A DNA stretch of 14,711 nt from Candidatus Solibacter sp. (GTDB lineage Bacteria > Acidobacteriota > Terriglobia > Bryobacterales > Bryobacteraceae): positions 1-14,711 of the forward strand of contig JADGNT010000031.1 of assembly GCA_017883345.1 (NCBI GenBank). The letters run 5' to 3'. A model generated the notes under the pieces. That model was not told the DNA's origin. It saw only the letters and a program-made list of their open reading frames with translations, and made no database searches. The first letter of the stretch is position 1. Every line of letters starts with the position of its first letter. Positions 866 through 14,711 of the stretch are shown one piece after another. The translations under genes and the position numbers were made by a program.

Positions 866-1272
866 ACCAGAACGTAGGGGCTGTAGACATCGATCAGCCC
901 GCTGGCCAGGTACGGTTTCGCATTTTTCATAGTTCGGATCGTATTTTTTGGATACCGGGGGCATCGTGCTCTATGCTTTCCCGCAACAGGTCGTCGATCT
1001 GGTAGTGGAGCAAGTGGAGCTGACTGCCCACAACTGAAGCAGGCTTCCCAGGAGGCCGGACTCCGTCCCCCTGGGGCTCAGCGGTCTGAAGAGCAGGACG
1101 CCGATTCCGAACGGCTGGTGGGCTGCGCGGATCCTGGACCTGAAGATAGCTTCGCGATGGCCGATGTCTACCGGGGCGATATGGACAATCACGGCGATGG
1201 TGACAGCGTGAACCGGAGCTATCCAGTACCTTCAGATTCCTTGACGGCGGAAAAGCCCCGGGTTCGCAAGCC
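866..1272. other. About 400 bases without a recognisable gene; possible decayed coding sequence
   Basis: Only short minus-strand open pieces lie here. One (1231 to 971) contains the protein-like run IGHREAIFRSRIRAAH. A second frame is open to a TGA at 927-929 and ends HYQIDDLLRESIEHDAPG. A third starts with an ATG at 930 overlapping that stop (ATGA) and reads LASGLIDVYSPYVLVDG before losing protein-like character near 830. None matches a family I know. The pieces are in different frames, as expected for one or two genes broken by indels between the esterase remnant and the cupin gene. I see no RNA gene and no clear terminator. Confidence 0.35.
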
Positions 1273-2373
1273 TCACACGAAGGCAACTGTCGGCGAGATG
1301 CACTGCTCGGAGTACGTGAGGTATCCACCTGCCTCGCTAGAGATCGCGTACTGCACCCCCGGTGGTATCAGGACCAGATCCCCAGTACGCACCTCGACAC
1401 GAGGTATCGAGGACGGATTCTCGGAACTATCGCACATTGCCAAGCCACCGTCGCCACTAGAGATTCTGAGGAGCACGAGACGGTCGTCTTCTCGTTGGAG
1501 GTCCGTCTCTTGCTTCGGAGCTATGACGTAGCGCGCCGCTCTGAGGAACGAATCGCACAGGACCGTCCGCTCGCCCCCTTGTATGGCATCCGGCACAATA
1601 GTTTCCATGTTTCTGTGCTCAAGTCCTCTCACGGCTCGATTCGTCAGCGGCATTTCGATCGCGCGTAGCGCCTCCTCAGAATGGAGCCGATCGAACGAAG
1701 CAGGAATGGCTCTACCGATGTTCTGGTCATGCAACCTCTGGACCATATCGGTTGATACCGTTGCATACTCTTCGAGGACGCAACCAATGACAGTGTGCAC
1801 TGTTCCTAACTCAGATATCACAAGGACGTCGCCCGAAGCCGGCACAAACTTGTACCTGTCATAATCGGCATTCTCTTTGCCCGCAAGCCAATCTTGAAAG
1901 GATTCCTTCTTATATATCCGTTTCCACTGCTCGAAGTCGCACAAGAACACGTATCCTCCCGGCTTTACCTGGAGAATATGAAATACTTCTAGCTTATGCT
2001 CGATGTGTCTTTGAAAACTAAACCCCTGCCGTTCATTCTGGATAAATATCGAGTAACCGACAGGCGTTGCGGCCTTGATCGCGTACGACTTATACTTCAG
2101 AATGAATCCCAGTTCCATCTGGAACCTCGTGATCTGTCTGGCTTCCGCCCCGGACAACTGATTCCGCAGGATTGATCGCAAAAGTAGCTTTAGGAGCATC
2201 TCCAGCCGTTCGGCCTGGTCGATCGGCAAATCCCTGCGGAGGTGCTCTTTGAACACGGGCAGACCTCGCAATCCGCATTCGATCAGCCTCCGTACGATAT
2301 CGCTTTCATTTGTTTCAGAGTGGGCCGCATAGGCATCGAGATCCCGTGATAGCTCACTGTATTTGGTGGTCAT
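1273..2373 (-). CDS. Double-cupin protein of unknown function, with N-terminal helical domain
   Basis: A 366-residue soluble protein with no signal peptide. Residues 1-90 are charged and helical. A first cupin follows: H123, H126 and E129 lie in GFSFQRHIEHKLEVFHIL with PGG at 138-140, and GDVLVISELGTVH (181-193) supplies the second motif with H193. Next comes EEYATVSTDMVQRLHDQN (201-218), which resembles sugar-phosphate-type cupins. A second cupin occupies about 270-360; its motif GDLVLIPPGVQY (331-342) fits G-x5-P-x-G but has Tyr342 where the metal-binding His is expected, so this copy is probably metal-free. The ATG at 2373 has a weak GAGAG a few bases upstream. The gene lies 64 bases behind the transglutaminase-like gene, in the same direction and with the same low GC, so the two probably travel together. 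Function is unknown; a sugar isomerase/epimerase-like or ligand-sensing role is possible. Confidence 0.75.
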   Translation of the reverse strand: MTTKYSELSRDLDAYAAHSETNESDIVRRLIECGLRGLPVFKEHLRRDLPIDQAERLEMLLKLLLRSILRNQLSGAEARQITRFQMELGFILKYKSYAIKAATPVGYSIFIQNERQGFSFQRHIEHKLEVFHILQVKPGGYVFLCDFEQWKRIYKKESFQDWLAGKENADYDRYKFVPASGDVLVISELGTVHTVIGCVLEEYATVSTDMVQRLHDQNIGRAIPASFDRLHSEEALRAIEMPLTNRAVRGLEHRNMETIVPDAIQGGERTVLCDSFLRAARYVIAPKQETDLQREDDRLVLLRISSGDGGLAMCDSSENPSSIPRVEVRTGDLVLIPPGVQYAISSEAGGYLTYSEQCISPTVAFV

Positions 2374-2409
2374 CTTATCTCTCTATACTCTTCCCGCCGA
2401 GAGGCCTAT

Positions 2410-2427
2410 CATGGAAAATGATCCATG
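2410..2427. repeat. Inverted repeat CATGGA-N6-TCCATG in the cassette's intergenic gap
   Basis: A perfect 6-bp inverted repeat (2410-2415 and 2422-2427) with a 6-base A/T-rich spacer lies between the stop of the transglutaminase-like gene (2438) and the start of the cupin gene (2373). It could be an operator for a dimeric regulator or a small intercistronic hairpin. No U-tract follows it on the minus strand, so it is not a typical terminator. Confidence 0.35.
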
Positions 2428-2437
2428 GAGTTTCAAA

Positions 2438-3778
2438 TCAAGAAGGCTTCGGAAGTTCCACGGGCCCCCGGCTGAACGAGCGGGAGCCAAAACTAATACG
2501 AAAGGTCCCTAGCGATGCCTGCGGAGCCGCCACGAAAGAAATCCAGTCGTTTTCAATAAGGCATCCGTCTCCGGACAAGCGCAGTTCGATCGAAACACCG
2601 CCCAGCAGAACAACATTGATCGCGGCGCCCCGATCGACCTGTCTTCGAACGGTGAAGTCATGTACACCAGTGAACTTGAGTTGATAGACCCGATCCCAGG
2701 TTCCCGAGAACATCGGGCAAACAAGTACCAGCGGTATCTGATGACAAACGGCCCGATTCTCAGTAATGCATTTGTCGAAGCCGAAATACAACGTTGTGCC
2801 GCCTGTGAAGCAAATTGGGCAGAGATTTGAATCCGATTCAAAATGATAGGGGGCAATCGTCATATACTCTGCAACGTCTCCCTCCATGTATTTGTAAACG
2901 TCTCCGCAATCTCGATGATAGTAGCACGCGTAGCGATCTATTTGGCCAGTGGCCGCAAAATGTCGGCGATGATACAAAAACCCGTTACGATACAACGGGA
3001 TGTCGGCATCGAAAGGAGCCAAGACAACGCCGAGATTCTTGCCGACAAATGGGTCGGCATCAATGTCGATAATCAGCGGCACTCCGCCCAATTCGACAGT
3101 GCTATAAGCGTGAATAGGTGGTCTGCGAACTTCATCTGTATAAAAGGACGGCCAGAACTGGCGACAGGAGATCTCGCTTGGAAAGCGGTAGGCCGCGAGA
3201 ATGGCGGCGACATGCTTTTCGACACACGTGATGCACATGGCACCCAGACCATCATCGACGGGATAAGCCAGGGAATCCAATCCAGCGTTTTGAGATATCA
3301 GCTCGGCTTTGACTCGAATCAGGTCCTGAATAGCTGAGAGCAGCCTCTGCTCGACATGTGGCTGCAGGTCGAGGGAGTGCGCACGCAATCGTTGAATGGC
3401 ATCGCGTGCTGATGCGGAAGCATATGGTGAAATTAGTCCAGCAAGTTCTTCTTGTAGCATCACGGAGTCCTGAACTAGAGACACCCTCGACGAGACGGAA
3501 ATGGATGGCCTGCCCCAGCAGTCCCGGAGCGTGTCGGGCGTCCTTGTAAAGCGAATCGCATGCAGCCTAAAGCCGCCTGGTCGCGTGGCAGTGATGTCAA
3601 ACTGTCCGGAATCATCAGCGTCCACAAGTATATCGAAATCCTCGGCGATTCCACCCAGTTCGGCAGAAGCGGGCCAGCGGGACGATCGGGGACCGCGCAC
3701 AGATATCCAGAGATCGCCTCCGAATACTTCCTTAAATGTATGGAGAGACTCACCCTCCATTGGCAAAATAGCTGACAC
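2438..3778 (-). CDS. Transglutaminase-like (Cys-His-Asp) domain protein with Cys-rich C-terminal region
   Basis: A 446-residue protein from a GTG at 3778; an in-frame ATG at 3760 is the alternative, and neither has a strong Shine-Dalgarno. The central region resembles the transglutaminase/protease core. GAMCITCVEKHVAAIL (179-194) followed by FPSEISCR looks like the GxCxxxA helix and the 'GIPar' turn, with C182 or C185 as nucleophile. HAYSTVELGGVPLIIDID (223-240) matches the H-x-W-x-E-V...G.W...D block, giving H223 and D238. Residues 1-110 look like beta-rich globular sequence and 110-165 are helical. The C-terminal part holds C285, C291, C320-x-x-C323, C337 and C345, a possible zinc site. No signal peptide or membrane helix is apparent. 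The gene starts 57 bases behind the nagB-like gene and in its frame, but GC drops sharply at the boundary, suggesting insertion. A peptidase, cross-linking or peptide-modifying role would fit the fold; the substrate is unknown. Confidence 0.7.
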   Translation of the reverse strand: MSAILPMEGESLHTFKEVFGGDLWISVRGPRSSRWPASAELGGIAEDFDILVDADDSGQFDITATRPGGFRLHAIRFTRTPDTLRDCWGRPSISVSSRVSLVQDSVMLQEELAGLISPYASASARDAIQRLRAHSLDLQPHVEQRLLSAIQDLIRVKAELISQNAGLDSLAYPVDDGLGAMCITCVEKHVAAILAAYRFPSEISCRQFWPSFYTDEVRRPPIHAYSTVELGGVPLIIDIDADPFVGKNLGVVLAPFDADIPLYRNGFLYHRRHFAATGQIDRYACYYHRDCGDVYKYMEGDVAEYMTIAPYHFESDSNLCPICFTGGTTLYFGFDKCITENRAVCHQIPLVLVCPMFSGTWDRVYQLKFTGVHDFTVRRQVDRGAAINVVLLGGVSIELRLSGDGCLIENDWISFVAAPQASLGTFRISFGSRSFSRGPVELPKPS

Positions 3779-3835
3779 AATGTTTCCGGCGTGACCTCGT
3801 GGTCGAATTGGCGCGCAACCGGCGGGTGCGGCGGA

Positions 3836-4648
3836 TCATCGGGCCGCGGATGTGGGAGCCGACCCAGGCGTGGCGCGCCCTAACAGCGAGGAGGATTCAG
3901 AGTCCAGGAACAACTGCGCGAGCGCGTGCGTTCTCAGAATCGACGCCGGACAGGTGGTGGAGATTGGGCCTTCGATGGTATCTCGCACGGCTTCGGCCTT
4001 GCGGAGTTCCGGAACGCAGCAGATGAGGTTTGTCATACCAACGATGGTGGGACAGGTCAGCGATAATGCATGCTCCGGCACGGCGGAGATGCCGTCGAAA
4101 TGGCCTTCGCCAACCTGCTGTCGCCGGCAGGCATCGTCGAGATGGACAATCTTGACCGGCAGGGGGTCGGCGAAGTCCGCCACCGGCGGGTCGTTGAAGC
4201 CAATGTGTCCGTTCTCGCCGATTCCGATAAAGCCGGCGTCGATGGGCGCCTCGGCGAGCAGGGCGCCATAGCGGCGGCACTCAGCTTCCACATCCGGCGC
4301 GTCACCGTTAACATAGTGCATGGCGCGCAGCGGAACGCGGTCGGCCAGCCTCGTCTTCAGCCACAGCCGGAAACTCGCCGGATGCGTCATCGCCATGCCG
4401 GCGTACTCGTCCAGGTGGAACGCCTCGACGGCGCTCCAGCCGAGGTCTGGGGCCAGTACGAGTGCGTCAATAAAGTCGAGCTGGGAATTGCCGGTGCTCA
4501 CCACAATGCGTGCGCGGCCGCGGGTGGCGATGGCACCGCGCAGGATCGCGGCCGCAGCCTCTGCCGCTACGCCGGATGCCTCGCGTTTGGATGAGAATAC
4601 CTGCACCTGCATAACGCCGGCATGGAACGTCTTTATTAGGGATGACAT
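3836..4648 (-). CDS. nagB: Glucosamine-6-phosphate deaminase / NagB-like isomerase
   Basis: A 270-residue cytoplasmic member of the NagB/RpiA-like sugar isomerase family, which converts glucosamine-6-phosphate to fructose-6-phosphate and ammonia. Visible family motifs are STGNSQ (51-56, phosphate loop), FHLDEY (77-82, with D80), GIGENGHIGFNDP (142-154, with catalytic H148) and SLTCPTI (196-202). E. coli Asp141 is Asn here and Glu148 is Asp; the Asn is common in other NagB proteins. I place the start at the ATG at 4648 because GAGAGG lies 6 bases upstream. An in-frame ATG at 4675 would add nine residues and abut the stop of the MFS gene with no gap, but it has no ribosome site of its own. The gene is co-transcribed with the upstream carrier. 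No GlcNAc-6-phosphate deacetylase or kinase is seen nearby, so the real substrate may be a different amino-sugar phosphate. Confidence 0.85.
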   Translation of the reverse strand: MSSLIKTFHAGVMQVQVFSSKREASGVAAEAAAAILRGAIATRGRARIVVSTGNSQLDFIDALVLAPDLGWSAVEAFHLDEYAGMAMTHPASFRLWLKTRLADRVPLRAMHYVNGDAPDVEAECRRYGALLAEAPIDAGFIGIGENGHIGFNDPPVADFADPLPVKIVHLDDACRRQQVGEGHFDGISAVPEHALSLTCPTIVGMTNLICCVPELRKAEAVRDTIEGPISTTCPASILRTHALAQLFLDSESSSLLGRATPGSAPTSAAR

Positions 4649-4675
4649 GGGGTACCTCTCAAATGGATTCTGCAT

Positions 4676-5968
4676 TTAGCCTTGTTCTTGGCCCGCCGTC
4701 CGCGTGGGGACGAGCAGACAGACAAACAGGGTGGCGGCGAGCGGAACGGTGCTGGCGGCCACCAGCACGGGCTGGAAGGAGTAGTGGTCGGCGGCCCAGC
4801 CGATCAGGTAGGTGGAAAGAATCGTGCCGAGGCCGGCGCCAGTGCCGCTCATACCGCTCACTGTGGCGACCTCAGAGGACGGATAGAGATCGGACGGCAA
4901 CGTCAGTGCCATCGTGGACCATGCCGCATAGCTGAACGTGGAAATGGCGAAGAGCGCGATCAGTAGAGCGAAGTTGTTGAGAAACGCGGCCGGGATCAAG
5001 CACGCCATGCCGGCACCGCAAACCACGACCACGAATTTGCGCGCCCGCACGACGGGCCAGCCCCGGCGAATGAGGTAGCTCGAGAATCCACCTCCGGAGA
5101 AATTGCCGAGGTCGGCGGCAAGGAACGGAACCCAGAAGCCGACGAGTGCATTCTCCAGCCGGAATCCCTTCGAGACGAGGTAAATAGCGAACCAGTCGGC
5201 GACAAAGTACCAGACGGGATCGGTGAGCGCCCGGCCGAGTATAATGCCCCAGGTTTGGCGCATACCGAGCAGCGCGAGCCAGGAGTGGGATGATTCAGAA
5301 CCACTCTTTCCCGCTTCTGCTCTGCCGCTGAGAATGTAGTTGCGTTCGTCTGAGCCGAGTCGGGGATGAGTCTCAGGCGGGTGATAGAATCGCCGCCAGA
5401 CAAGCACCCAACTGAAACCGAGCATTCCCGTTACTACGAAAACCGGGCGCCAACTGCCGAAGCTGTGATAGAGCCCCACCACAAGGGCAGGCGCGACGGC
5501 GGCGCCGATGGCCGAACCGCTGTCGAACAGGGCCACAGCCCAGCCGCGTTCGGTCTTGGGAAACCATTCGGCGACAGCCTTTGTTGCGCCGGGCCAGTTG
5601 GCAGCCTCGCCTGCACCGAGCAGAAAGCGGAAAGCCATGAAACTCCTCAGGCCTTGCGCTGTCGCGGTCATGATGGCCGCTATCGAATACCAAGTGACCG
5701 AAAGCAGCAGGCCTCGGCGAGTGCCAAGCCAGTCGAGCAAGCGCCCCGCGACAGTCTGCATCACCGCGTAGGAGACGCGGAAGGAAATGATCAACAGCGC
5801 AAAATCCGAGTTCGTCCAGTGGTAGTCGGACTTCAAGAAAGGGGCAAGCACACTGAGTGTCTGGCGGTCGATGTAATTGATGACCGTGGAGGCAAACAGC
5901 AAACCACCAATCCACCATCGCAGCCGGGGAATCGCCGGGCGGCCCCCACCCTGGTTCCGTTCGACCAT
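4676..5968 (-). CDS. MFS transporter, anion:cation symporter type (hexuronate/ExuT-like)
   Basis: A 430-residue inner-membrane carrier with about twelve hydrophobic segments, starting near residue 19. The signature [15 protein letters not shown] (31-45), the cytoplasmic loop [11 protein letters not shown] (75-85, MFS motif A) and [15 protein letters not shown] (113-127) are typical of the ACS family that carries hexuronates, galactonate and related sugar acids by proton symport. A charged loop at about 192-228 separates the two halves. Length is normal and the frame is intact. The ATG at 5968 is set by GGAGGG five bases upstream. The stop is 27 bases before the preferred nagB start, so translation is probably coupled. 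Exact substrate cannot be read from sequence; the context suggests an amino-sugar or sugar acid. Confidence 0.88.
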
Positions 5969-5971
5969 TAT

Positions 5972-5995
5972 TTCCCTCCAAAAACGAGGAGGGAA
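5972..5995 (-). promoter_or_regulatory. Hairpin that sequesters the Shine-Dalgarno of the MFS gene
   Basis: On the minus strand, TTCCCTCC (5995-5988) pairs perfectly over 8 bp with GGAGGGAA (5979-5972), around the loop TCGTTTTT. The 3' arm contains the GGAGGG ribosome-binding site that lies five bases before the ATG at 5968. The folded RNA would hide it, so translation of the carrier may depend on opening of this stem. The pairing is seen directly; the regulatory role is inferred. Confidence 0.5.
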
Positions 5996-5998
5996 TGC

Positions 5999-6015
5999 GG
6001 GCTGAGGCCCAGCCC
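5999..6015 (-). promoter_or_regulatory. Second hairpin in the leader of the MFS gene
   Basis: On the minus strand GGGCTG (6015-6010) pairs with CAGCCC (6004-5999) around the 5-base loop GGCCT; two more G-C pairs can be added across a bulged G. It stands three bases upstream of the hairpin that covers the ribosome site, in the 119-base gap between the esterase stop and the MFS start. No U-run follows, so it is not a standard terminator. It could stabilise a processed mRNA end or be part of a structured leader. Confidence 0.4.
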
Positions 6016-6087
6016 CGCGACTTCCCTCGACGGAAACCCGTTGCTGAATGTGATCCAGATCATGTCGATCCCAGCATCAGGCCAGGG

Positions 6088-8121
6088 CTACCCGGCCGCG
6101 AGGCCAGTCAGGACGCGTTCAGTCCAATCCGCGTCGGGCCGGACCTCGACGGAGTCCTCATAAAGTGCGCGCACAAGGCCGGGCGCGACGGGTTGACCGT
6201 TGGCATCTACGGGCCCGGCGAGGATGACACGGCGGGGCGCGACGAGGCGCGCGATGAAGGGCAGGTCGGTGCGGGTAAGCACGCCAGGCAGGAAGCTCGA
6301 GAAAGGCTCGGTGTAGCTATCGCCTGCGAGCAGGCTTGCCCAGGAGACGAGGCCGCGCGCGAGGTAGGCGACGGCGAGGCCGGAATCGAGCGCTGTGGCG
6401 CAGAGCGCAGGCAGGGTCATATGACCACTGGCGGCGAGCACGAGCGGACGCTCGCGGCCGACACGCTGGCGCACAGCCGAGGACATCGCGAGGATGTCGT
6501 CCACGCGCTGCGCGAGCAGGGGATGGCCGAGGATGAGCGAAGCCCAGGCGTAAGCTTCCTCGCTCGAGTGCGACGCGTTGTAGAAAGAGTTGCCGCGACC
6601 GAGTTCGGGCGTAAGGTCGCCGATACCGCGGACGTCAAAGGCGCAGACGAGGTGACCAGCGGCGGCAAGATTCTGGCAGAGATCACCCTCGCGCCAGTGG
6701 CGTGTGCGACCGGCAGGATCGAGCAGTAAAAGCGCGGAGCGGAGCGGAGTGACAGGCGACGGATTGAACACGTAGGCGGGCAGAACGACACCGGGAGCGG
6801 AGGCGACCTCACAGGTTTCAACCTCGCAGCCGAGCGCACGGTCGCGCGCCAGCACGATGAGCTTAGCCGACGGCGCGGAGCCGAGTCCCAACAGCGTACG
6901 CAGCGCGGCGGCGTCGAGGGGCGCGGGCGAAACGGGCGCTGCGGGCGGGAGAGCGGGCTGGACTCCCGCCACAAGCACTGCGTCGGGTTCGGGCTGGACC
7001 GGGGGCTCGGAGACCAAGCGAGTGGAGCTGTGGAGCCAACGCTCGAGGAAGCGGTAGCTTTGGAGGCGCAATTCCGGCGCGAGGGCATGCGGTAGGGCTG
7101 TGGCGCCCCACTCGAGGCGGTCGGCGGCGCCGAGAAGCGCGTAGACGCGGCGGAGCTTCTCAAACTCCTCGAGGCCACTTTGGAGATACGAGGGCGAGTA
7201 GGTACCGAACGAGTCGCGCTCACTCACCAATAGCAGCAGCGGCTTGGGGGCGAGCGGGTAGAGCAGGTCCCAACGGTCGAAGCCGAGCGGGCCGGAGCCG
7301 ATGAGATTCTGCTCGGCGTCGTCGGTGGAGCCGGGCGGGTTGAAGCCGTCGCAGGCGAAGTTCTCGGTGTTGCCGCAGGAAACGACGGCGCAGGCCAGGC
7401 GCGAATCGACGGCGGCGAGGAACATGGTGAGCGTGGCACCGCCGGACTGGCCCATGGAAGCGATGCGCGTGCGGTCTACCATGGGAAGATCCCAGAGCAC
7501 GTCGAGACTGCGAACAGCATCCCAGAGTTGGAGCCTCGTGGCGCTATCGCCGGAGAGGAGGAGTTGGCGCCCTAGCCGGGAATGTTCCTCGTCGGCGTCG
7601 CCCGCCTTATAGTAGGTGCGCTCGCCCTGGCCGAAGGGATCAAAGGCGAGCACGACGTAGCCGAGGCGGACGAGCGCCTGGCACGCCTTCTGATAAGTGT
7701 CGTTGGCTTTTCCGTTCAGGCTATGGCCCATCTGGAAGAGAACAGCGGGGAAGGGCGGCTGCGCCCCATCCGGCAAATACAGGTTGGCCGGGATGCGCAC
7801 GCCGGTGCGGCTCTCGTAGACAAGCAACTGGACGCGATAGCCGTCGCGGGCAAAGCCGCCGGTTTGGTGGACAAGGAGCGGGGTGCGCTCCGGCTCGCCG
7901 CCGATGAGTTGCCAAAGGGTCTTGCGAACCCACTGCTGGCGGGCGCGCACGTCGTCGGGCGTCTTCAGTTGTGCGAGCGCTGCCTCGCGCCGCTGGTAGG
8001 CCTGGCGCGCCAGGGCGGCGAGATAGTCGGGTAGGCAGCGGGCATAAAGACGGAACCGCGGCTGAGCGAGAGCCGCGGTTCCACCGGCCAGTGCGAGAAG
8101 GATCGACCGACGCGTTAACAT
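6088..8121 (-). CDS. Exported two-domain alpha/beta hydrolase, acetyl-xylan-esterase-like
   Basis: A 677-residue protein predicted to be exported: it begins MLTRRSILLALAGG and reaches AQ near residue 20, a twin-arginine-type leader. Domain one (about 40-370) is a complete alpha/beta hydrolase, with G-Q-S-G-G and nucleophile S226, probable acid D303 in SERD, and H345 in LPHAL. Domain two (about 400-665) repeats the fold (AFDVRGIGD, then AASGHMT) without a nucleophilic serine, so it is probably structural or carbohydrate-binding. Such proteins remove acetyl or other acyl groups from polysaccharides or glycosides. An in-frame GTG six bases upstream (8127) is an alternative start; neither has a clear Shine-Dalgarno. 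The gene lies 47 bases behind the oxidoreductase gene. Its second domain is the closest match to the remnant at 146-862. Substrate is not determinable here. Confidence 0.82.
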   Translation of the reverse strand: MLTRRSILLALAGGTAALAQPRFRLYARCLPDYLAALARQAYQRREAALAQLKTPDDVRARQQWVRKTLWQLIGGEPERTPLLVHQTGGFARDGYRVQLLVYESRTGVRIPANLYLPDGAQPPFPAVLFQMGHSLNGKANDTYQKACQALVRLGYVVLAFDPFGQGERTYYKAGDADEEHSRLGRQLLLSGDSATRLQLWDAVRSLDVLWDLPMVDRTRIASMGQSGGATLTMFLAAVDSRLACAVVSCGNTENFACDGFNPPGSTDDAEQNLIGSGPLGFDRWDLLYPLAPKPLLLLVSERDSFGTYSPSYLQSGLEEFEKLRRVYALLGAADRLEWGATALPHALAPELRLQSYRFLERWLHSSTRLVSEPPVQPEPDAVLVAGVQPALPPAAPVSPAPLDAAALRTLLGLGSAPSAKLIVLARDRALGCEVETCEVASAPGVVLPAYVFNPSPVTPLRSALLLLDPAGRTRHWREGDLCQNLAAAGHLVCAFDVRGIGDLTPELGRGNSFYNASHSSEEAYAWASLILGHPLLAQRVDDILAMSSAVRQRVGRERPLVLAASGHMTLPALCATALDSGLAVAYLARGLVSWASLLAGDSYTEPFSSFLPGVLTRTDLPFIARLVAPRRVILAGPVDANGQPVAPGLVRALYEDSVEVRPDADWTERVLTGLAAG

Positions 8122-8168
8122 GTCCACATCATTTTAGAACGTGATGCATAAGCGTCAACTTAGGGAGG

Positions 8169-9473
8169 TCAGACCTTCTCGGGCACGACGAAAGGCTTGC
8201 GATACTCGCGCCGGAACATCCGGTTGGCCTCTGCGTCGCCGCGGACGCTGTAGCTGGCCGCATCGAACTGGAGCGTCCTGCCCACCCGGTAGGAGATGTT
8301 TGCCAAGTGGACCAGCGTTGTCGAGATTGCGCCTTCTTCAATCGGGGCGTTGAGGTCCTCTTGCTTGCGCGTGCGCAGCGCCGCGATGAAGTTGGCCCAA
8401 TTGTTTCCGATGTCCTCGCCGGAGGGACCGGGCTCCGAGTCGCGTCCGAGGAAGCTTTGGTAACGGCCGTGGTCTTCGTCCCAAACTGCCAGGCGTCCCT
8501 TCGACCCGTAGAACACCGCGCCGACGGTGTTGGGCGCGCGCCCGTCCTCGCCTATGCCGGATTCATGGTTGCTCATCCAGTGTCGCACCTCGAACACCAT
8601 CATCTTCTTTTTGCCGTTGTCGTCGAACTCGAAGCTGGCATTCAGGGTGTTCGGTGTTTCCTGGTCATCGTCGAACATGAAGTGGCCGCCGATGGCACTC
8701 ACCTTGGTGGGGTACTTCACGCCCAGGCCCCACCGGCAGACGTCCACCTGATGAATGCCCTGGTTCCCGAGATCGCCGTTGCCGTAGTCCCAGAACCAGT
8801 GCCAGTTGTAGTGGAATCGGTTCCGTGTAAAAGGGTGCTCGGGCGCCGGGCCGAGCCAAAGGTCGTAGTGGACACCCGGCGGCACCGGTTCCCCCGGCTT
8901 CCGGCCGATGGTGTCACGCCATTTGAAACAGAGGCCGCGGGCCATGTAGACGTCGCCGATAAGCCCGCCGTGGACGTGCCGCATGGCCTCCCGCGCAATG
9001 CTGGAGCGGCTATTGGTGCCGTGCTGCACCAGGCGATTGTACTTCCGCGCGGCGGCTACTATTTGCCTGGCCTCGAACATGTCGTGGGAGCAGGGCTTCT
9101 CCACATAAACGTCTTTCCCCGCCTGGCAGGCCCAGATCGTCTGGAGGGTGTGGTGATGGTTCGGAGTAGCGATGGAGACGGCGTCGATGGTTTTGTCTTC
9201 CAGGAGCTTGCGGATATCGGAGTAAACGGCCGGGCGCTTCTTCCCGGCTTTTTCCATGTCCGCGATGCAGACGTTCTGCACGGACTCGTCGATGTCGCAG
9301 ATGGCCGCGACTTCCACGTTCGGCATGGCTCCGTAGCGGGCGACATGAACCTTGCCCTGCCCGCGCACTCCGACGCAAGCGACCCGCACGGTATCATTGG
9401 CGCTGGCCAGCATCGTGGAACGAACTGCCGAACCAGCAGCCAGGGAACCCATCATAAAATGTCTTCGCTGCAT
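8169..9473 (-). CDS. Exported Gfo/Idh/MocA family oxidoreductase
   Basis: A 434-residue NAD(P)-dependent sugar oxidoreductase-type protein. It has a twin-arginine leader (MQRRHFMMGSLAAGS), then the Rossmann glycine loop GVRGQGKVH (35-43), ICDID (58-62), the cofactor-binding EKP (125-127), and GNQGIHQVD (236-244), the region carrying the catalytic-type histidine and aspartate of the family. The C-terminal half is the longer domain seen in the Tat-exported bacterial members, which hold their cofactor tightly, like glucose-fructose oxidoreductase. The ATG at 9473 is supported by GAGGAG seven bases upstream. The gene sits 64 bases behind the PIG-L gene and in front of the esterase. It probably oxidises, epimerises or cleaves a glycoside outside the cytoplasm; the exact reaction is unknown. 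Confidence 0.87.
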   Translation of the reverse strand: MQRRHFMMGSLAAGSAVRSTMLASANDTVRVACVGVRGQGKVHVARYGAMPNVEVAAICDIDESVQNVCIADMEKAGKKRPAVYSDIRKLLEDKTIDAVSIATPNHHHTLQTIWACQAGKDVYVEKPCSHDMFEARQIVAAARKYNRLVQHGTNSRSSIAREAMRHVHGGLIGDVYMARGLCFKWRDTIGRKPGEPVPPGVHYDLWLGPAPEHPFTRNRFHYNWHWFWDYGNGDLGNQGIHQVDVCRWGLGVKYPTKVSAIGGHFMFDDDQETPNTLNASFEFDDNGKKKMMVFEVRHWMSNHESGIGEDGRAPNTVGAVFYGSKGRLAVWDEDHGRYQSFLGRDSEPGPSGEDIGNNWANFIAALRTRKQEDLNAPIEEGAISTTLVHLANISYRVGRTLQFDAASYSVRGDAEANRMFRREYRKPFVVPEKV

Positions 9474-9480
9474 TTTCGTA

Positions 9481-9486
9481 CTCCTC
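9481..9486 (-). promoter_or_regulatory. Shine-Dalgarno deciding the start of the Gfo/Idh/MocA gene
   Basis: GAGGAG on the minus strand lies seven bases before the ATG at 9473. It fixes that start and shows the oxidoreductase has its own strong ribosome site, unlike the PIG-L and esterase genes on either side, which have none that I can see. Confidence 0.6.
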
Positions 9487-9516
9487 GCGGCTTAACGTAA
9501 CACACGCCACGCCACG

Positions 9517-9529
9517 AAGCGCGGCGCTT
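9517..9529. repeat. Hyphenated palindrome AAGCGC-G-GCGCTT
   Basis: A perfect 6-bp inverted repeat around a single base lies in the 64-base gap between the PIG-L stop (9538) and the oxidoreductase start (9473). It is too tight to form a good RNA hairpin, but it has the symmetry of a protein-binding site. In such GC-rich DNA it may be chance. Confidence 0.25.
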
Positions 9530-9537
9530 GCCGCCGG

Positions 9538-10530
9538 TCATTTCGCCGGGACGGCGTGCTCCTTTACATAGGAGTCGATGCGCGGGTCGCGGTCCGCGCC
9601 GGCGGCGCCCGGGGCGATATAGTGGAAGGCTTCGGCGTATTCCACGCCGTATTGCCTGCCTAACTCGCGACTGTGAGTGAGGCTGAATTCCTTGATGTAG
9701 TTGCGGTCGGCGGTGACGTCGTCGTCGTCGAGCAGGGGGAGGCGCTGATTGCGTTTTGCGAGCTCGGCGCGGAGACGCGATCCGCAGTGGCCGCCCGGGC
9801 CCTTGGCGACGTTCGCGCGAATCGCGTCGACGCGCTTATCGATCTGCTTGCTGATATCCACTACCCGCGTGATCTCGGGACGGCGCGCGAAATAGTATTT
9901 GTCCTGCACGGCTTTCGGCTGGAGGCCGGCGGCGAAGTGCTCCGCATAATCGTGCGCGCGGCCGGCCATCCAGCACGCGGCTTCGACTGCCTTCGCCAGC
10001 GTGTAGTGATCGGGATTCTCTTCGTCGTGCGCCCAAGGGTCCCAGCCGACTACGGTGTCGGCCTTGACGAGGCGAATCAGAAAAATGACGCGGCCGATCA
10101 GTTCGTTGAGCGAGACATCGCCCATACGGTGGTTGCTGTAATTCAGATCGAAATGGGCTTTGCATCCGAGAACGCGCGCCACCTCGTCGTTGTCACGCTC
10201 GTTGCCGAGCACGTGCTCGCCGATGGTTCCGGGCGTGCCGAGGCCGGGGGCATCGCCCATGTCGTCGTTCGACGCGCGCACTAAGTAGCCGGTGTAACCC
10301 TCTTCGATCAGCTTGGCGACTGTGCCTGCGGCCGAAAGCGGGATGTCATCGGAATGCGCCTGGAGCGCGAGCAGGACTCTTCCCTTGTGGGGCTGGCCTG
10401 GGTTGGAGCGCTCCAGTACCACGCGGGAGTCGGCCTGGGGTGGTTGCTGTTGTGGTTGTGGTTGAGAACGCGCCAACCGGGAGATCGCGCCGGCGGCAAC
10501 CAGACTGCCACAGAAATTGCGCCGTAACAT
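9538..10530 (-). CDS. Exported PIG-L / LmbE-family zinc deacetylase
   Basis: A 330-residue metal-dependent N-deacetylase-like protein. The leader MLRRNFCGSLVAAGAISRLA is twin-arginine-like, followed by a Gln/Pro-rich linker (22-35). The zinc motif is AHSDD (58-62), with H59 and D62 as ligands and Ser where most members have Pro; the usual following Glu is Ile. The third ligand, H175, lies in NPDHYTLAKAVEAA. The family removes acetyl groups from N-acetylhexosamine moieties, which fits the amino-sugar theme of the downstream genes. I use the ATG at 10530. An upstream TTG at 10563 would overlap the divergent promoter and shift the leader peptide away from the N-terminus. There is no Shine-Dalgarno before the ATG, but a TATAAT box ends seven bases upstream, pointing to a leaderless mRNA. 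First gene of the minus-strand cluster. Confidence 0.85.
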   Translation of the reverse strand: MLRRNFCGSLVAAGAISRLARSQPQPQQQPPQADSRVVLERSNPGQPHKGRVLLALQAHSDDIPLSAAGTVAKLIEEGYTGYLVRASNDDMGDAPGLGTPGTIGEHVLGNERDNDEVARVLGCKAHFDLNYSNHRMGDVSLNELIGRVIFLIRLVKADTVVGWDPWAHDEENPDHYTLAKAVEAACWMAGRAHDYAEHFAAGLQPKAVQDKYYFARRPEITRVVDISKQIDKRVDAIRANVAKGPGGHCGSRLRAELAKRNQRLPLLDDDDVTADRNYIKEFSLTHSRELGRQYGVEYAEAFHYIAPGAAGADRDPRIDSYVKEHAVPAK

Positions 10531-10545
10531 GGAACCGATTATACT
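10517..10545 (+). promoter_or_regulatory. Predicted sigma-70-type promoter for the dehydratase-permease pair
   Basis: TTGCGC (10517-10522), a 17-base spacer and TATACT (10540-10545) form a plausible -35/-10 pair. Transcription would begin near 10552, just before the CGAGG ribosome site (10551-10555) and the ATG at 10563. The -35 lies inside the first codons of the divergent PIG-L gene. Spacing and match are reasonable, but there is no experimental support. Confidence 0.45.
10538..10543 (-). promoter_or_regulatory. Consensus -10 box (TATAAT) for the PIG-L operon
   Basis: Read on the minus strand, TATAAT occupies 10543-10538 and is followed by only seven bases before the ATG at 10530, so the transcript would start at or next to the start codon. 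A weak TTGCAC lies 14 bases upstream, closer than usual for a -35. The box overlaps the plus-strand TATACT by four bases. Confidence 0.45.
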
Positions 10546-10562
10546 CTCGTCGAGGTTGTGCA

Positions 10563-11708
10563 ATGCGAATTACAGAGATCCGATCGGCAGGACTGCGCCA
10601 TGGCACGCCTGAGGGCGGGTGGGCCAATGAAATCCGTCCGGAAGATTGCGTCCACACGCTGATCGCGGTCTTCACCGATGAAGGCGTGACCGGATGGGGA
10701 TCTACCTTCACGAACGACGCGCTGGTGCACGGGGCGCTCGGCGTGCTCGAACCGCTCTACCGCGGCGAGAACCCGCTGGAGCCGGAGCGTGTCAGCGAGA
10801 AACTGCATGCGAACACCTTCTGGATGGGCCGCGGCGGGTCCATCACGCACGCGATCAGCGGGGTCGACATCGCGCTTTGGGACATTCTCGGGAAGGCGAC
10901 CGGACAGCCCGTGGGGAGGCTGCTCGGGGGACGGTATCGGGAGCGGGTGCGGCCCTACGCCTCGGTACTGATGCGCGAACCGCGCGCGCTGGCCGAACAA
11001 CTGAGCGGCATTCGCGGGCAGGGCTTCCGCGCGTTCAAGATCGGCTGGGGCCCCTTCGGGCGGCACAGCTTCGCGATGGACGAAGCCATCGTGCGGGCGG
11101 CGCGCCAGGCGATAGGACCGGAGTCCTTCCTGATGGTGGACGCGGGTGCGAGCGACGCCTTCTGGCCGCAGGATTACAAATGGGCGGCGCGGACCGCGCG
11201 CATGCTCGCCGCCTACGATGTCCACTGGTTCGAGGAGCCGCTCGATCCCGACAACCTGCACGATTACGTGCTGCTGCGGAACACGTCCGCGGTACCGATC
11301 GCGGGCGGCGAGGTCTTGACGCGGAGGCAATCGTTCGCCCCGTGGCTGCGGCAGCGCGCCTTCGACATCGTGCAGCCGGACGTGACGAAGGTGGGGGGAA
11401 TCAGCGAAGAACGGCGCATCGCGTGGATGGCGGAGGAGAATGGCGTGCGATTCATCCCGCACGGGTGGAACACGGCGTTGGGACTGGCGGCGGATCTGCA
11501 CCTGGCCTCAGCCAGCCGGAAGACCGATATGGTCGAGTACCTCATGGGCTCGCCGTTCATCGACGACCTGGTGACGGCGCCGTGGAAGCTGGACGCGGAG
11601 GGCATGCTGGCCATCCCGGACGGCGCCGGATTGGGAGTTGAGCTCAACATGGACGCGGTGGAAAAGCATACGGGCGAGCGCTTCCAGCCGGCGCGAGCGG
11701 GCATCTGA
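10563..11708 (+). CDS. Enolase-superfamily sugar-acid dehydratase (mandelate racemase/muconate lactonizing enzyme type)
   Basis: A 381-residue cytoplasmic enzyme. The N-terminal capping domain covers about 1-125 and a (beta/alpha)-barrel follows. Visible active-site elements are K159 in FKIGWGPFGR (K-x-G rather than the common K-x-K), D193 in VDAG, E224/E225 in WFEEP, E250 in GGE, D273 in VQPDVTKVGG, H300 in PHGWN and E325 in MVEYL. Three acidic magnesium ligands plus the D273/H300 dyad place it in the mandelate racemase subgroup, whose members mostly dehydrate sugar acids such as galactonate, fuconate or galactarate. The start is the ATG at 10563, with GAGG seven bases upstream; the frame stays open further upstream, but that lies inside the divergent gene. 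The stop is one base before the permease start, so they form an operon. Loss of the second lysine means the substrate stereochemistry differs from K-x-K enzymes. Confidence 0.88.
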   Translation: MRITEIRSAGLRHGTPEGGWANEIRPEDCVHTLIAVFTDEGVTGWGSTFTNDALVHGALGVLEPLYRGENPLEPERVSEKLHANTFWMGRGGSITHAISGVDIALWDILGKATGQPVGRLLGGRYRERVRPYASVLMREPRALAEQLSGIRGQGFRAFKIGWGPFGRHSFAMDEAIVRAARQAIGPESFLMVDAGASDAFWPQDYKWAARTARMLAAYDVHWFEEPLDPDNLHDYVLLRNTSAVPIAGGEVLTRRQSFAPWLRQRAFDIVQPDVTKVGGISEERRIAWMAEENGVRFIPHGWNTALGLAADLHLASASRKTDMVEYLMGSPFIDDLVTAPWKLDAEGMLAIPDGAGLGVELNMDAVEKHTGERFQPARAGI

Positions 11709-11709
11709 C

Positions 11710-13035
11710 ATGGCGGCGCCTGGCGGAACGGCGCGCGATCTGCCCCGCCGGTTGGGGATGCTGGATGCCACCGCAATCGTGGTGGGCATCGTGATCGGCT
11801 CGGGCATTTTTGTCCTCCCGAATGTGATCGCCCGCAACGTGCCGTCGTACGCCGGGATCGTCGCGGCGTGGGTGATTGGCGGCGTGCTCTCGTTCTGCGG
11901 AGCGCTGGCCTACGCAGAACTGGGCGCGATGCTTCCCGCCACGGGCGGGCAATACGTTTATCTGAGGGAAGCCTACGGACCGTTGTGCGCCTTCGTATGC
12001 GGCTGGACGTTTATGCTGGCGGTGCTCTCGGGCGGGAGCGCCTGGCTGGCGGTCACCTTCTCGATCTATGCGGGCTACTTCGTGCGTCTGACGCCGGCGG
12101 GCGCGAAGACGATCGCGGTGGCGTTGATCGCGGCGCTCTCGGCGGTGAATTACGTGGGGGTCAAGCAAGGGGCGGGGGTGCAGCGTACGTTCACGTGTTT
12201 GAAGGTGGCGGCGCTGGTGATACTGATCGGCGCCGCGTTCTTCAGCGGGCACTCCGCAACTGGCGGCGAGTCCGCGCCAGGTCGGGCTGGGTTCGCGCAT
12301 TTCGGCGTGGCCATGGCGGCATGCCTGATGGCGTACAACGGCTGGAGCTACGTCAGCTTCGTTGCTGGAGAGGTGCGGGATCCCGAGCGAAACCTGCTGC
12401 GCTCGCTGGTGATCGGGATGGCGGTGGTAGCGGTGCTGTATGTCGCGGCGAATCTGGCGTACCTGAAGGTGATGACGATCCCGGAGATCGCCGCCACCGA
12501 GCGCGTCGGCGCGGACGTGGCGACGCGGACCATGGGCTCGATCGGCGGAACGTTCGTATCGTTGGCCGTGCTGCTTTCGATTATCGGCGCGATCAACGGC
12601 TGCATCCTGACGGGCGCGCGGATCCCGTTCGCGCAGGCGAGGGACGGGCTGTTTTTCGCGCGGCTCGGAGAGGCGCACCCGCGTTTTCAGACGCCCGGTT
12701 TCGCCATCGTGTGCGGGGGAATCTGGACGGCCATTCTCGTGGTCAGCGGATCGTACGAGACGCTGTACTCGTACTCGATCCTGGCTGCGTGGATCTTCTA
12801 TACGATGAGCGTGGCGGCGGTGATGGTGCTGCGCCGCAAACTGCCCGATGCGGCGCGGCCATACCGGATGTGGGCCTATCCGTGGACTCTGTGGCTGTTC
12901 GTGGCGGTGTCCGTATGGTTCATGGCGGACGCGGTCGTAACCGAGCCGCGGCCTTCCGCGATGGCGCTGACGATTGTCGCGACGGGCGCGCTGGCGTACT
13001 GGATGTGGCGCAGGGTGTCCGCAACGCCGGGTTAG
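11710..13035 (+). CDS. APC-family amino acid permease
   Basis: A 441-residue inner-membrane transporter with about twelve hydrophobic segments. The first helix carries GSGIF (30-34), the broken-helix substrate-binding motif of the APC superfamily, followed by AWVIGGVLSFCGALAYAELGAMLP (53-76) and GGQYVYLREAYGP (79-91), typical of the basic-amino-acid/polyamine and LAT-like branches. The ATG at 11710 is one base after the dehydratase stop, with no strong Shine-Dalgarno, so translational coupling is likely. An amino-acid or amine exchanger paired with a sugar-acid dehydratase is unusual and suggests that the substrate carries an amino group or is an amino-acid conjugate. Substrate is not determinable from sequence. 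Confidence 0.88.
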   Translation: MAAPGGTARDLPRRLGMLDATAIVVGIVIGSGIFVLPNVIARNVPSYAGIVAAWVIGGVLSFCGALAYAELGAMLPATGGQYVYLREAYGPLCAFVCGWTFMLAVLSGGSAWLAVTFSIYAGYFVRLTPAGAKTIAVALIAALSAVNYVGVKQGAGVQRTFTCLKVAALVILIGAAFFSGHSATGGESAPGRAGFAHFGVAMAACLMAYNGWSYVSFVAGEVRDPERNLLRSLVIGMAVVAVLYVAANLAYLKVMTIPEIAATERVGADVATRTMGSIGGTFVSLAVLLSIIGAINGCILTGARIPFAQARDGLFFARLGEAHPRFQTPGFAIVCGGIWTAILVVSGSYETLYSYSILAAWIFYTMSVAAVMVLRRKLPDAARPYRMWAYPWTLWLFVAVSVWFMADAVVTEPRPSAMALTIVATGALAYWMWRRVSATPG

Positions 13036-13209
13036 CTCCAACACGGTTCACTTAAGGGTGGCATCCCGACGCTTCCCAGATGGCCGTATCTCGGGAGTTT
13101 CAAGGCGGCGGCACTTCTACGCGACAAGCTAGCCAAGTGACACCACGACATTCACATCGGCGAATCACACGGCGAGATCTGGCTGCAGGGCGGTGCCATA
13201 GCCCGGAAG
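13036..13209. other. Convergent intergenic region
   Basis: The region lies between the convergent permease and nuclease genes. A plus-strand frame reads through GSFKAAALLRDKLAK to a stop and continues DIHIGESHGEIWLQGGA, which looks like a decayed protein tail but matches nothing I know. I see no strong hairpin followed by a T-run on either strand. Confidence 0.3.
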
Positions 13210-13857
13210 TCACACAGCTAAGAATAGATGATAGATCTTGAATGCACGGCGGGGGAGTGAATGGGATGATTCACTGACTCGGGAGCCGCCCGGCAGAACA
13301 GACGAGGGCACGAGCCGGGGTGTTGGCGAACACTGTAGTTGCCCGTGATTTGCCTCGATCGACGCTGCGACAGAAGCACGCGCTCTTTCGATGTCGCCGT
13401 CGAATACGTAACCGAGCATTCCGGCACTGTCCAGATCACACGCGTAACGCTCCTCGATGAAACACATCATTCCCTGATGCCCGGTCACATAGTCGGGGAC
13501 CAGCGACTTCCGGCCGGATGGGAAGGTGACGTGGAGCCGCTTCGACTCGATTACAAAGTATGGCCAGGGTTTTTCTATCCCGGTTGAGTAAAGAAACATC
13601 AGGTCCGTTCGGCCCAATTGCTTTTGTCTGGCCCACCTTCGGTCGTAGATCGGCACCTCGCGGAGCAACTCGATGGGGCGAGCCCTCAAACCTGGATCGC
13701 GGTCCAGAAGATCGCGCAGACGATCAGTGAGGTCATTTTCGAGTTCGGTATCATGCAACTTCCTTAGCCTGGCGCCGCTCCGCACTATGGCGGCAAGGAT
13801 GAAAGAGATCTCCTCCTCTGGGAATAGGGGAACCCATCGGGCGGCATTGTGTCTCAT
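13210..13857 (-). CDS. PD-(D/E)XK nuclease-like protein linked to a DNA methyltransferase
   Basis: A 215-residue protein. After a helical start, LENDLTDRLRDLL (39-51) supplies the early glutamate (E40), GRTDLMFLY (82-90) the aspartate D85, and YFVIESKRL (100-108) the E104-x-K106 pair. Together these form the core of a PD-(D/E)XK nuclease fold. A short Cys-containing segment (132-140) and a C-terminal HLFL complete it; length is complete. The ATG at 13857 overlaps the methyltransferase stop as ATGA, so the two are translationally coupled; I therefore reject the longer frame from 13938. The pairing suggests the cleavage partner of a restriction-modification or related phage-defence system. The same fold also occurs in repair and accessory proteins, so restriction activity is an inference. 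Confidence 0.7.
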   Translation of the reverse strand: MRHNAARWVPLFPEEEISFILAAIVRSGARLRKLHDTELENDLTDRLRDLLDRDPGLRARPIELLREVPIYDRRWARQKQLGRTDLMFLYSTGIEKPWPYFVIESKRLHVTFPSGRKSLVPDYVTGHQGMMCFIEERYACDLDSAGMLGYVFDGDIERARASVAASIEANHGQLQCSPTPRLVPSSVLPGGSRVSESSHSLPRRAFKIYHLFLAV

Positions 13858-14711
13858 TCTGTCTTTGCTTGCCGCCGCGCTTCGGCGATGTGAGCGCTGA
13901 GTTCGACGGCGTCGTTGAGCGCAGCCGTTCGGGTCCACTCCCCACGCAGAGCGGGCTTCACCAGGTAGATGCGCGAACCGTCGAAAATCAACCCGCTGCG
14001 CGAAAACTCGAGATGTCCCGCGCGCTCGATATTTACCTCCTGCAGGCGCTGCAGGGCGGCGGCGAGCGGCCTGGACAGATCCCGAATGCAGAACTCCTTT
14101 ACAGAGTGGGTCTGACTGAGTTCGACAAGGCCGACGCCGAGTTCAGTAGCCACGCTACCAGCGGCGCAAACCCTTATGCCTCCAGTAGCCCATCCGTTCA
14201 GTGTATTCACGAGCATTGTCGCGTACGGCTCAAGTCCCGCCGCGTCGAGCGCTTGCAGCGTGGGTATCTTTCGCGCGGCTTCGAGAGAGCCGGGCGTGGC
14301 GCTGCGATCAAAGACCTCCACCGTTTCCTCAACAAGGGCGCGTTCCTGCTGGTTGATCCCGAAGTATTCATAGATGAGAGAATTGAGCCCAAGTTGAAGT
14401 TCTTCGGCCTTGTCGCGCTGCTGCTGAAGCCACGCCTTCCGCGCCTTTGCCGCGTCGTCCTCTTCGTCATCGTCGCCGGAGCGCAAGCGAAATTCAGGCT
14501 CCTTCGGTTTCTTGAGCAGAATCTGGGCGCCATCGTCCATCTCTTCGATAAATCGGCGTACGCTGACGGCGGCCTTACCCACTATCAACGCTGCGTTCGG
14601 CTGCGCTGCGTCGCTGTCGGGCAGAAAGAACGGCAGACTCAGGGCCTCCTTGTTGTGTACCTTATCCCGCTCAGTAGCTAAACTAGCCGCAGTATGGAAC
14701 ACGAAGTAACG
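13854..14711 (-). CDS. N6-adenine DNA methyltransferase, C-terminal part (5' end beyond the window)
   Basis: The frame is open to the right edge, so this is the last 285 residues of a larger protein. It begins RYFVFHTAASLATERDKVHN, followed by LPFFLP, which resembles the target-recognition part of type I/IIG-like and defence-system N6-adenine methylases. After it come an acidic stretch (GDDDEEDDAAKARK), a long helix and LNSLIYEYFGINQQERALVE, which matches the spacer helix common near the end of such enzymes. The tail IYLVKPALRGEWTRTAALND is typical of the family end. The catalytic NPPY and SAM-binding motifs must lie outside the window. It is translationally coupled (ATGA) to the nuclease-like gene. 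I cannot decide between a type I-like, IIG-like or BREX/DISARM-type methylase. Confidence 0.7.
   Translation of the reverse strand, partial: RYFVFHTAASLATERDKVHNKEALSLPFFLPDSDAAQPNAALIVGKAAVSVRRFIEEMDDGAQILLKKPKEPEFRLRSGDDDEEDDAAKARKAWLQQQRDKAEELQLGLNSLIYEYFGINQQERALVEETVEVFDRSATPGSLEAARKIPTLQALDAAGLEPYATMLVNTLNGWATGGIRVCAAGSVATELGVGLVELSQTHSVKEFCIRDLSRPLAAALQRLQEVNIERAGHLEFSRSGLIFDGSRIYLVKPALRGEWTRTAALNDAVELSAHIAEARRQAKTE

Follow-up and report, generated by a model that had tools for sequence, protein, structure and literature searches.

Papain-like cysteine enzymes of cluster III are deamidases and include protein glutaminase, the catalytic domains of SseI and of the Pasteurella multocida toxin (PMT), and NTAQ1. 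The triads of PMT and SseI have a distance of about 40 residues from Cys to His and of 15 residues from His to Asp (PMC3498931). Amide bonds are formed by arylamine N-acetyltransferases and by amide synthases (NAT, ShGdmF). Double cupins (bicupins) are known as oxalate decarboxylase, mannose-6-phosphate isomerase, HEPD/MPnS, and 7S/11S globulins, and amino-sugar and tagatose operons of the GatZ/AgaS/PfkB type have been described. Here, a pair of adjacent genes is reported that lies on contig C184 of an acidobacterial genome (Candidatus Solibacter sp., 5.4 Mb, 890 contigs). The whole stretch of 14,711 nucleotides that was analyzed is called the window below. Gene 1 encodes a predicted papain-like/transglutaminase-type protein and gene 2 a predicted bicupin. 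A description of such a pair was not found in literature searches of open-licence papers.

The explanation that we favour, tentatively, is a compact, horizontally acquired accessory unit of two genes, in which an amide-acting cysteine enzyme and a sugar-processing bicupin would serve one pathway. The gene 1 product would be a member of the papain-like/transglutaminase superfamily with a Cys-His-Asp triad (C76 as nucleophile, H117, D132) and would cleave or transfer an amide, i.e., act as a deamidase, an amidase, or an amide-forming acyltransferase. The gene 2 product would have one metal site (H123, H126, E129, H132, and H193) in its two cupins and would most likely isomerise, epimerise, or otherwise process a sugar or amino-sugar derivative. 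Together, the two might give the host the means to open a sugar that bears an amide and is possibly N-substituted, and the freed sugar would then be handed on.

First, the gene 1 protein is considered. An initial annotation had noted a CxxC motif, an HxYxxVEL block, and a downstream Asp, and all three were present and conserved in an alignment of 21 rows (A4), including three truncated ones (P0005, P0008, and P0141). The predicted triad C76-H117-D132 was invariant in all covering rows, and C79, C214, C248, R100, D134, and D136 were further invariant residues. The "Cys-rich tail" of the same annotation was reduced to two invariant cysteines, C214 and C248. In the AlphaFold model (predicted local distance difference test, pLDDT, 85.2; predicted template modelling score, pTM, 0.83), C76 is placed just ahead of a helix (77-90), H117 in a strand (116-124), and D132 at the end of a strand (127-132). 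This order matches the superfamily, in which Cys begins a helix, His lies within a strand, and Asp belongs to the strand that follows. The C-terminal part, about residues 200-340, is predicted to be beta-rich. The best VIA fold matches were of the transglutaminase/papain-like kind, as had been proposed for the core, and their scores were middling. The closest folds include toxin and effector deamidases, and the matches favour amide hydrolysis or acyl transfer as the predicted chemistry. The middling scores, and the invariance of all four cysteines C76, C79, C214, and C248 (20 of the 20 rows with a letter there), would also fit a non-catalytic metal binder, in which the cysteines form a structural zinc site and the likeness to papain-like enzymes is one of arrangement only. 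This is improbable in our view, because H117, D132, and R100 are invariant too, the modelled positions of C76 at the helix start and of H117 and D132 on strands are those of the superfamily, and the spacing of Cys, His, and Asp agrees with solved triads.

Profile searches with gene 1 remained without assignment. The family had no match at the cut-off in Pfam (including Transglut_core, Tox-PLDMTX, and Gln_amidase), and when its 21 members were scanned at E 0.1, the sole match below this value was fvmX2 (E 0.053, one of the 21), which is weak and unrelated. NCBIfam gave no match at the cut-off, and a class II dehydroquinase-like match (Pfam E 0.18, NCBIfam E 0.19) was dismissed as noise. Nothing was found under E 0.001 in a viral fold library for gene 1, or under E 0.6 in the Protein Data Bank (PDB) by sequence for the gene 1 or the cupin alignment. 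No signal peptide was seen by eye, and the product is probably cytosolic.

Next, gene 2 is considered. Of the earlier description of its product as one metal-competent and one metal-free cupin, the residue pattern was confirmed in an alignment of 18 rows: the first cupin has the full metal-type residue set, with all five residues named above in 18 of 18 rows, and the second lacks conserved His. The protein is assigned to the cupin superfamily on the basis of the predicted structure, which matched an oxalate decarboxylase in Foldseek (E about 1e-8), and of the Cupin_2 profile, which matched 12 of the 18 family members (best E 2e-6), with no match of the window protein at E 0.01. The AlphaFold model had a pLDDT of 78.0 overall, and much of the region with the metal-type residues was at pLDDT 46-58. 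Support for the further proposal that the pair is an enzyme-plus-sensor module was not found.

The pair exists beyond the window genome. Nine places with the cupin gene were read, i.e., the window, L003 (genome G623, of the window's genus), L020 (G625), L035 (G751, of another family), L010 (G487), L011 (G429), L012 (G443), L013 (G468), and L014 (G059). Gene 1 is intact upstream of the cupin gene in two of the nine, the window and L003. Two further places hold remnants. L020 lacks the equivalent of window bases 2418-3303, and no more than 40 codons, from the start of gene 1, can be aligned there. The remnant in L035 (2204-2407) is C-terminal, shares 84% identity with P0131 over 38 residues, and is immediately followed by the cupin gene. 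For the other five places, tblastn with seven gene 1 proteins gave nothing under E 0.2. Recurrence in unrelated neighbourhoods, which had been suggested as the mark of a mobile unit, was thus seen in part: the four places have four different neighbourhoods, but three of them are in one genus. Compared with the intact copies, P0002, P0005, and P0141 look truncated or frame-shifted, which may be due to assembly errors. The ratio of non-synonymous to synonymous substitution rates (dN/dS) was well below 1 for both genes, i.e., 0.39 for gene 1 (window versus L003, without a significance test) and 0.22-0.23 for gene 2 (window versus L003: 0.23, likewise without such a test).

Both genes were counted in genome surveys, in which the draws overlap and few candidates were scored per genome, so that all counts are lower bounds. 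Gene 1 was found in 1 of 396 genomes of the phylum (with the narrower alignment A1), in 2 of 237 of the family, and in 2 of 399 of the class, the second of these being the fragment in G751. The cupin gene was found in 2 of 297 genomes of the phylum, in 5 of 101 and then 7 of 237 of the family, and in 2 of 200 of the class; the class to which G059 belongs had it in 1 of 41 genomes, and the genus containing G751 in 1 of 80. The remnant of gene 1 in G625 escaped the survey of 237 family genomes.

The start of gene 1 was revised. The open reading frame (ORF) listed at first had 446 codons and had been called from its first start codon; this start was not borne out, and the 106 leading codons are probably spurious. 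Residue 107 of this ORF is where the relatives P0003 and P0004 begin, L003 and L020 both have an in-frame TGA at an identical codon position of the upstream stretch, and the differences between the window and L003 in this stretch (10/4/5 by codon position) have no third-position excess, compared with 24/20/32 in gene 1 proper and 23/15/44 in the cupin gene. Therefore, gene 1 most likely has the extent given in Table 1. AGGA is found 7 bases ahead of M107. The predicted proteins P0001 and P0002, 99% identical to that of the window, include the upstream stretch and thus count against the shorter start; this would be expected of mechanical ORFs on the same DNA. By the renumbering, C182, C185, H223, and D238 of the longer ORF became C76, C79, H117, and D132. 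A third gene within the upstream codons was rejected as coding today, given the stop codon in L003 and L020 and the lack of codon-position bias; the stretch may be a degraded older gene.

Table 1. Features of the two-gene unit in the window
Feature	Position	Strand	Description
Gene 1 (most likely extent)	2438..3460	-	340-aa protein, predicted papain-like/transglutaminase type
5' extension of the 446-aa ORF, probably spurious	3461..3778	-	kept as DNA, not as protein
Spacer between gene 1 and gene 2	2374..2437	-	64 bases; L003 equivalent closely similar, 65 bases
Gene 2	1273..2373	-	366-aa predicted bicupin, N-terminal helical segment 2-88
Conserved low-GC block	1250..3735	no strand	common to window, L003, and L020; flanks differ per genome

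The two ORFs are co-directional, as had been stated. Their base composition is also exceptional: the earlier hand counts of G+C (24 of 60 at 1981-2040 and 41 of 60 at 6241-6300) were exact, and the conserved block has a G+C content (GC) of 53.3%, compared with a mean of 64.4% and a minimum of 61.2% elsewhere (170 overlapping windows of block size across 3736-14711). The GC at third codon positions was 0.54 and 0.62 for the pair, versus 0.74-0.85 in seven other genes of the window. All four gene 1-linked units had a lower GC than the rest of their locus (0.533/0.635, 0.524/0.618, 0.534/0.622, and 0.508/0.571). The block common to the window and L003 covers window positions 1250-3680 and is limited by the L003 contig end; the window and L020 share 1167-2417 and 3304-3735, and the flanks beyond the shared blocks differ. 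In L035, a tRNA-Met and a fragment of an integrase (Phage_integrase, E 1.5e-4, not reaching the cut-off) are close by. No inverted repeat of the kind that ends a classical transposon or insertion sequence pairs the two block borders within 1050-3900, and the exact block ends are not fixed. Searches of plasmid records (tblastn with P0131 and with the cupin), of phage records (only gene 1 searched there), and of viral contigs (either alignment) revealed no relative, and five proteins had only matches of E 0.038-0.049 in PHROGs. The spacer has a single weak promoter-like site, and neither this nor the promoter-like and terminator-like sites at 1000-4000 were above shuffle level; an Rfam scan of the window gave no match at gathering scores. 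Taken together, the pair seems to be rare and horizontally moving in soil bacteria.

Several observations weigh against a tight unit of two genes. The cupin has a much wider distribution (363 clusters versus 20 for gene 1), it occurs without gene 1 in five of the nine places, and gene 1 has decayed in L020 and L035; therefore, a tight functional unit is less sure. Cupin genes without gene 1 are also low in GC in L010 (0.542/0.603) and L011 (0.562/0.608); in L012, L013, and L014 the GC is not below the rest of the locus. In a cupin tree of 116 rows (P0010-P0128 of at least 340 aa, from the best 120 of 363 relatives, plus nine genomic copies), the gene 1-linked copies fall in two places, with L035 as a long branch, and their clustering was no more ordered than in shuffles (82 of 500 as low). 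Because of the tree and of the low GC of cupin genes without gene 1, slightly less trust is placed in the favoured explanation. It is rather unlikely, however, that the cupin works alone and gene 1 was just a passenger upstream when the DNA moved. Its absence or degradation in seven places and its higher dN/dS would fit a passenger, but intact copies keep a dN/dS well below 1, and in L035 the remnant, of a gene 1 clade about 37% identical to that of the window, is still directly upstream of a gene for a cupin about 47% identical to the kind in the window.

A sugar substrate for the two-gene unit is suggested solely by the cupin neighbourhoods. In L011, a weak SIS match, PfkB, GatZ, the cupin, and a GH2 glycosidase are encoded on one strand, with a gap of 3 bases between GatZ and the cupin. 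In L010, the genes for the cupin and a Melibiase are oriented divergently to those for PfkB, GatZ, and a weak SIS match, and a strong SIS gene follows further on. As both loci belong to one genus, the sugar context amounts to hardly more than a single observation, and genomes of this kind commonly carry carbohydrate genes. The fold matches of gene 1 would also allow tailoring of a small molecule or peptide, in which gene 1 encodes an amide-forming acyltransferase of the arylamine acetyltransferase/geldanamycin amide synthase type and the cupin is an isomerase or epimerase of a small natural product. This is unlikely, as a scan of ten window proteins gave no carrier protein or synthetase domain; no systematic search for short precursor genes was made.

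The other neighbourhoods are diverse. The window has NagB-like, MFS, and hydrolase genes; the nagB-like gene was rejected as a pathway marker, as nagB and MFS are 88% conserved in G622 with the rest of the window unmatched (contig of 8,427 bases). At the downstream border of the unit, an alpha/beta hydrolase gene (146-930) is open only at 146-724, has no clear start, and may be broken near the border. In the region 13210-14711 at the contig end, the ORF at 13210-13938 had no match in Pfam, NCBIfam, or PADLOC and is nuclease-like by eye, and a protein matches the C-terminal part of PADLOC REase_MTase_IIG (type IIG restriction-modification, E 1.7e-6). L035 has a beta-helix protein and a sodium:solute symporter, L013 an amidohydrolase, and L012 a Cys/Met-type pyridoxal phosphate enzyme as well as a short ORF (3476-3853), unreadable in part (X), that consists of repeats almost identical to each other (SLIAHGPSLPPDPWVGG-like). 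In L014, an FkbM-type methyltransferase gene (7267-8100) adjoins the cupin gene, and a reverse transcriptase gene (5033-5962), close to PADLOC RT_VI (E 3e-72), and a helix-turn-helix gene (5962-6438) are nearby. In L010, positions 12969-15155, between GatZ and a SIS-domain gene, encode a protein of 728 aa whose C-terminal domain is of the FGE-sulfatase type.

The toxin and effector deamidases among the closest folds raise a further alternative, namely that gene 1 encodes a deamidase-type toxin, acting on a protein of the cytosol or of a neighbour cell, and the cupin its immunity protein or antitoxin. The sporadic low-GC units, one of them (L035) beside the integrase fragment and tRNA-Met, and the decay of gene 1 next to an intact cupin gene, as would follow from loss of a toxin with retention of its antidote, would agree with this. 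It is nevertheless quite improbable, because the cupin family is so much larger than that of gene 1, the cupin of L011 is part of a sugar operon that lacks gene 1, no domain typical of secretion or of polymorphic toxins was found when ten window proteins were scanned, and neither protein of the pair matched PADLOC. The PADLOC defence models gave no match up to E 0.01 for the window pair, P0119, P0131, or P0139. Two adjacent L003 proteins (2530-5792; 525 and 513 aa), mutually similar by eye, had no Pfam match and are uninformative either way.

The amide-and-sugar explanation can be extended to a new papain-like amidase family with its own beta-rich C-terminal domain, which, together with a metal bicupin, would form a dedicated relay of two enzymes acting on an amide-linked sugar, encoded by a mobile catabolic cassette of soil Acidobacteriota that is lost without the substrate; we regard this extension as doubtful. 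Gene 1 would add a family without Pfam entry and with an invariant candidate triad to the papain-like/transglutaminase superfamily, and gene order ties it to a likewise unassigned bicupin in four genomes. The pair also gives an entry point to a widespread family of cupins, which is found beside sugar genes in one genus and for which no named role was found. The two proteins appear to be small, soluble, and amenable to testing, and a real link between them would point to a new amide-opening step in the carbohydrate use of soil bacteria.

Compared with the known systems, the two genes differ from each in several respects. The gene 1 protein has only 8-9% identity to NAT and ShGdmF, and evidence for the use of coenzyme A or a carrier was not obtained. 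The cupin gene is in or beside PfkB-GatZ with SIS-type genes in L011 and L010, as in operons of the GatZ/AgaS/PfkB type, but the window's own pair is outside any such operon, and among the papers listed on these operons none has the word cupin. Gene 2 had no significant sequence match in the PDB (best E 0.78), and it differs from the known bicupins by an N-terminal helical segment of about 88 residues, an H-x-x-H-x-x-E-x-x-H motif, and metal-type residues only in the first cupin. Unlike the cluster III deamidases, the gene 1 protein matches no Pfam or NCBIfam family at the cut-off, has an extra beta-rich C-terminal part, is seen in no secretion context, and has a cupin as partner. Yet it may resemble them in its predicted core and is like them in the order of Cys, His, and Asp, and the spacing of these residues, about 40 from Cys to His and 15 from His to Asp, is like that of PMT and SseI.
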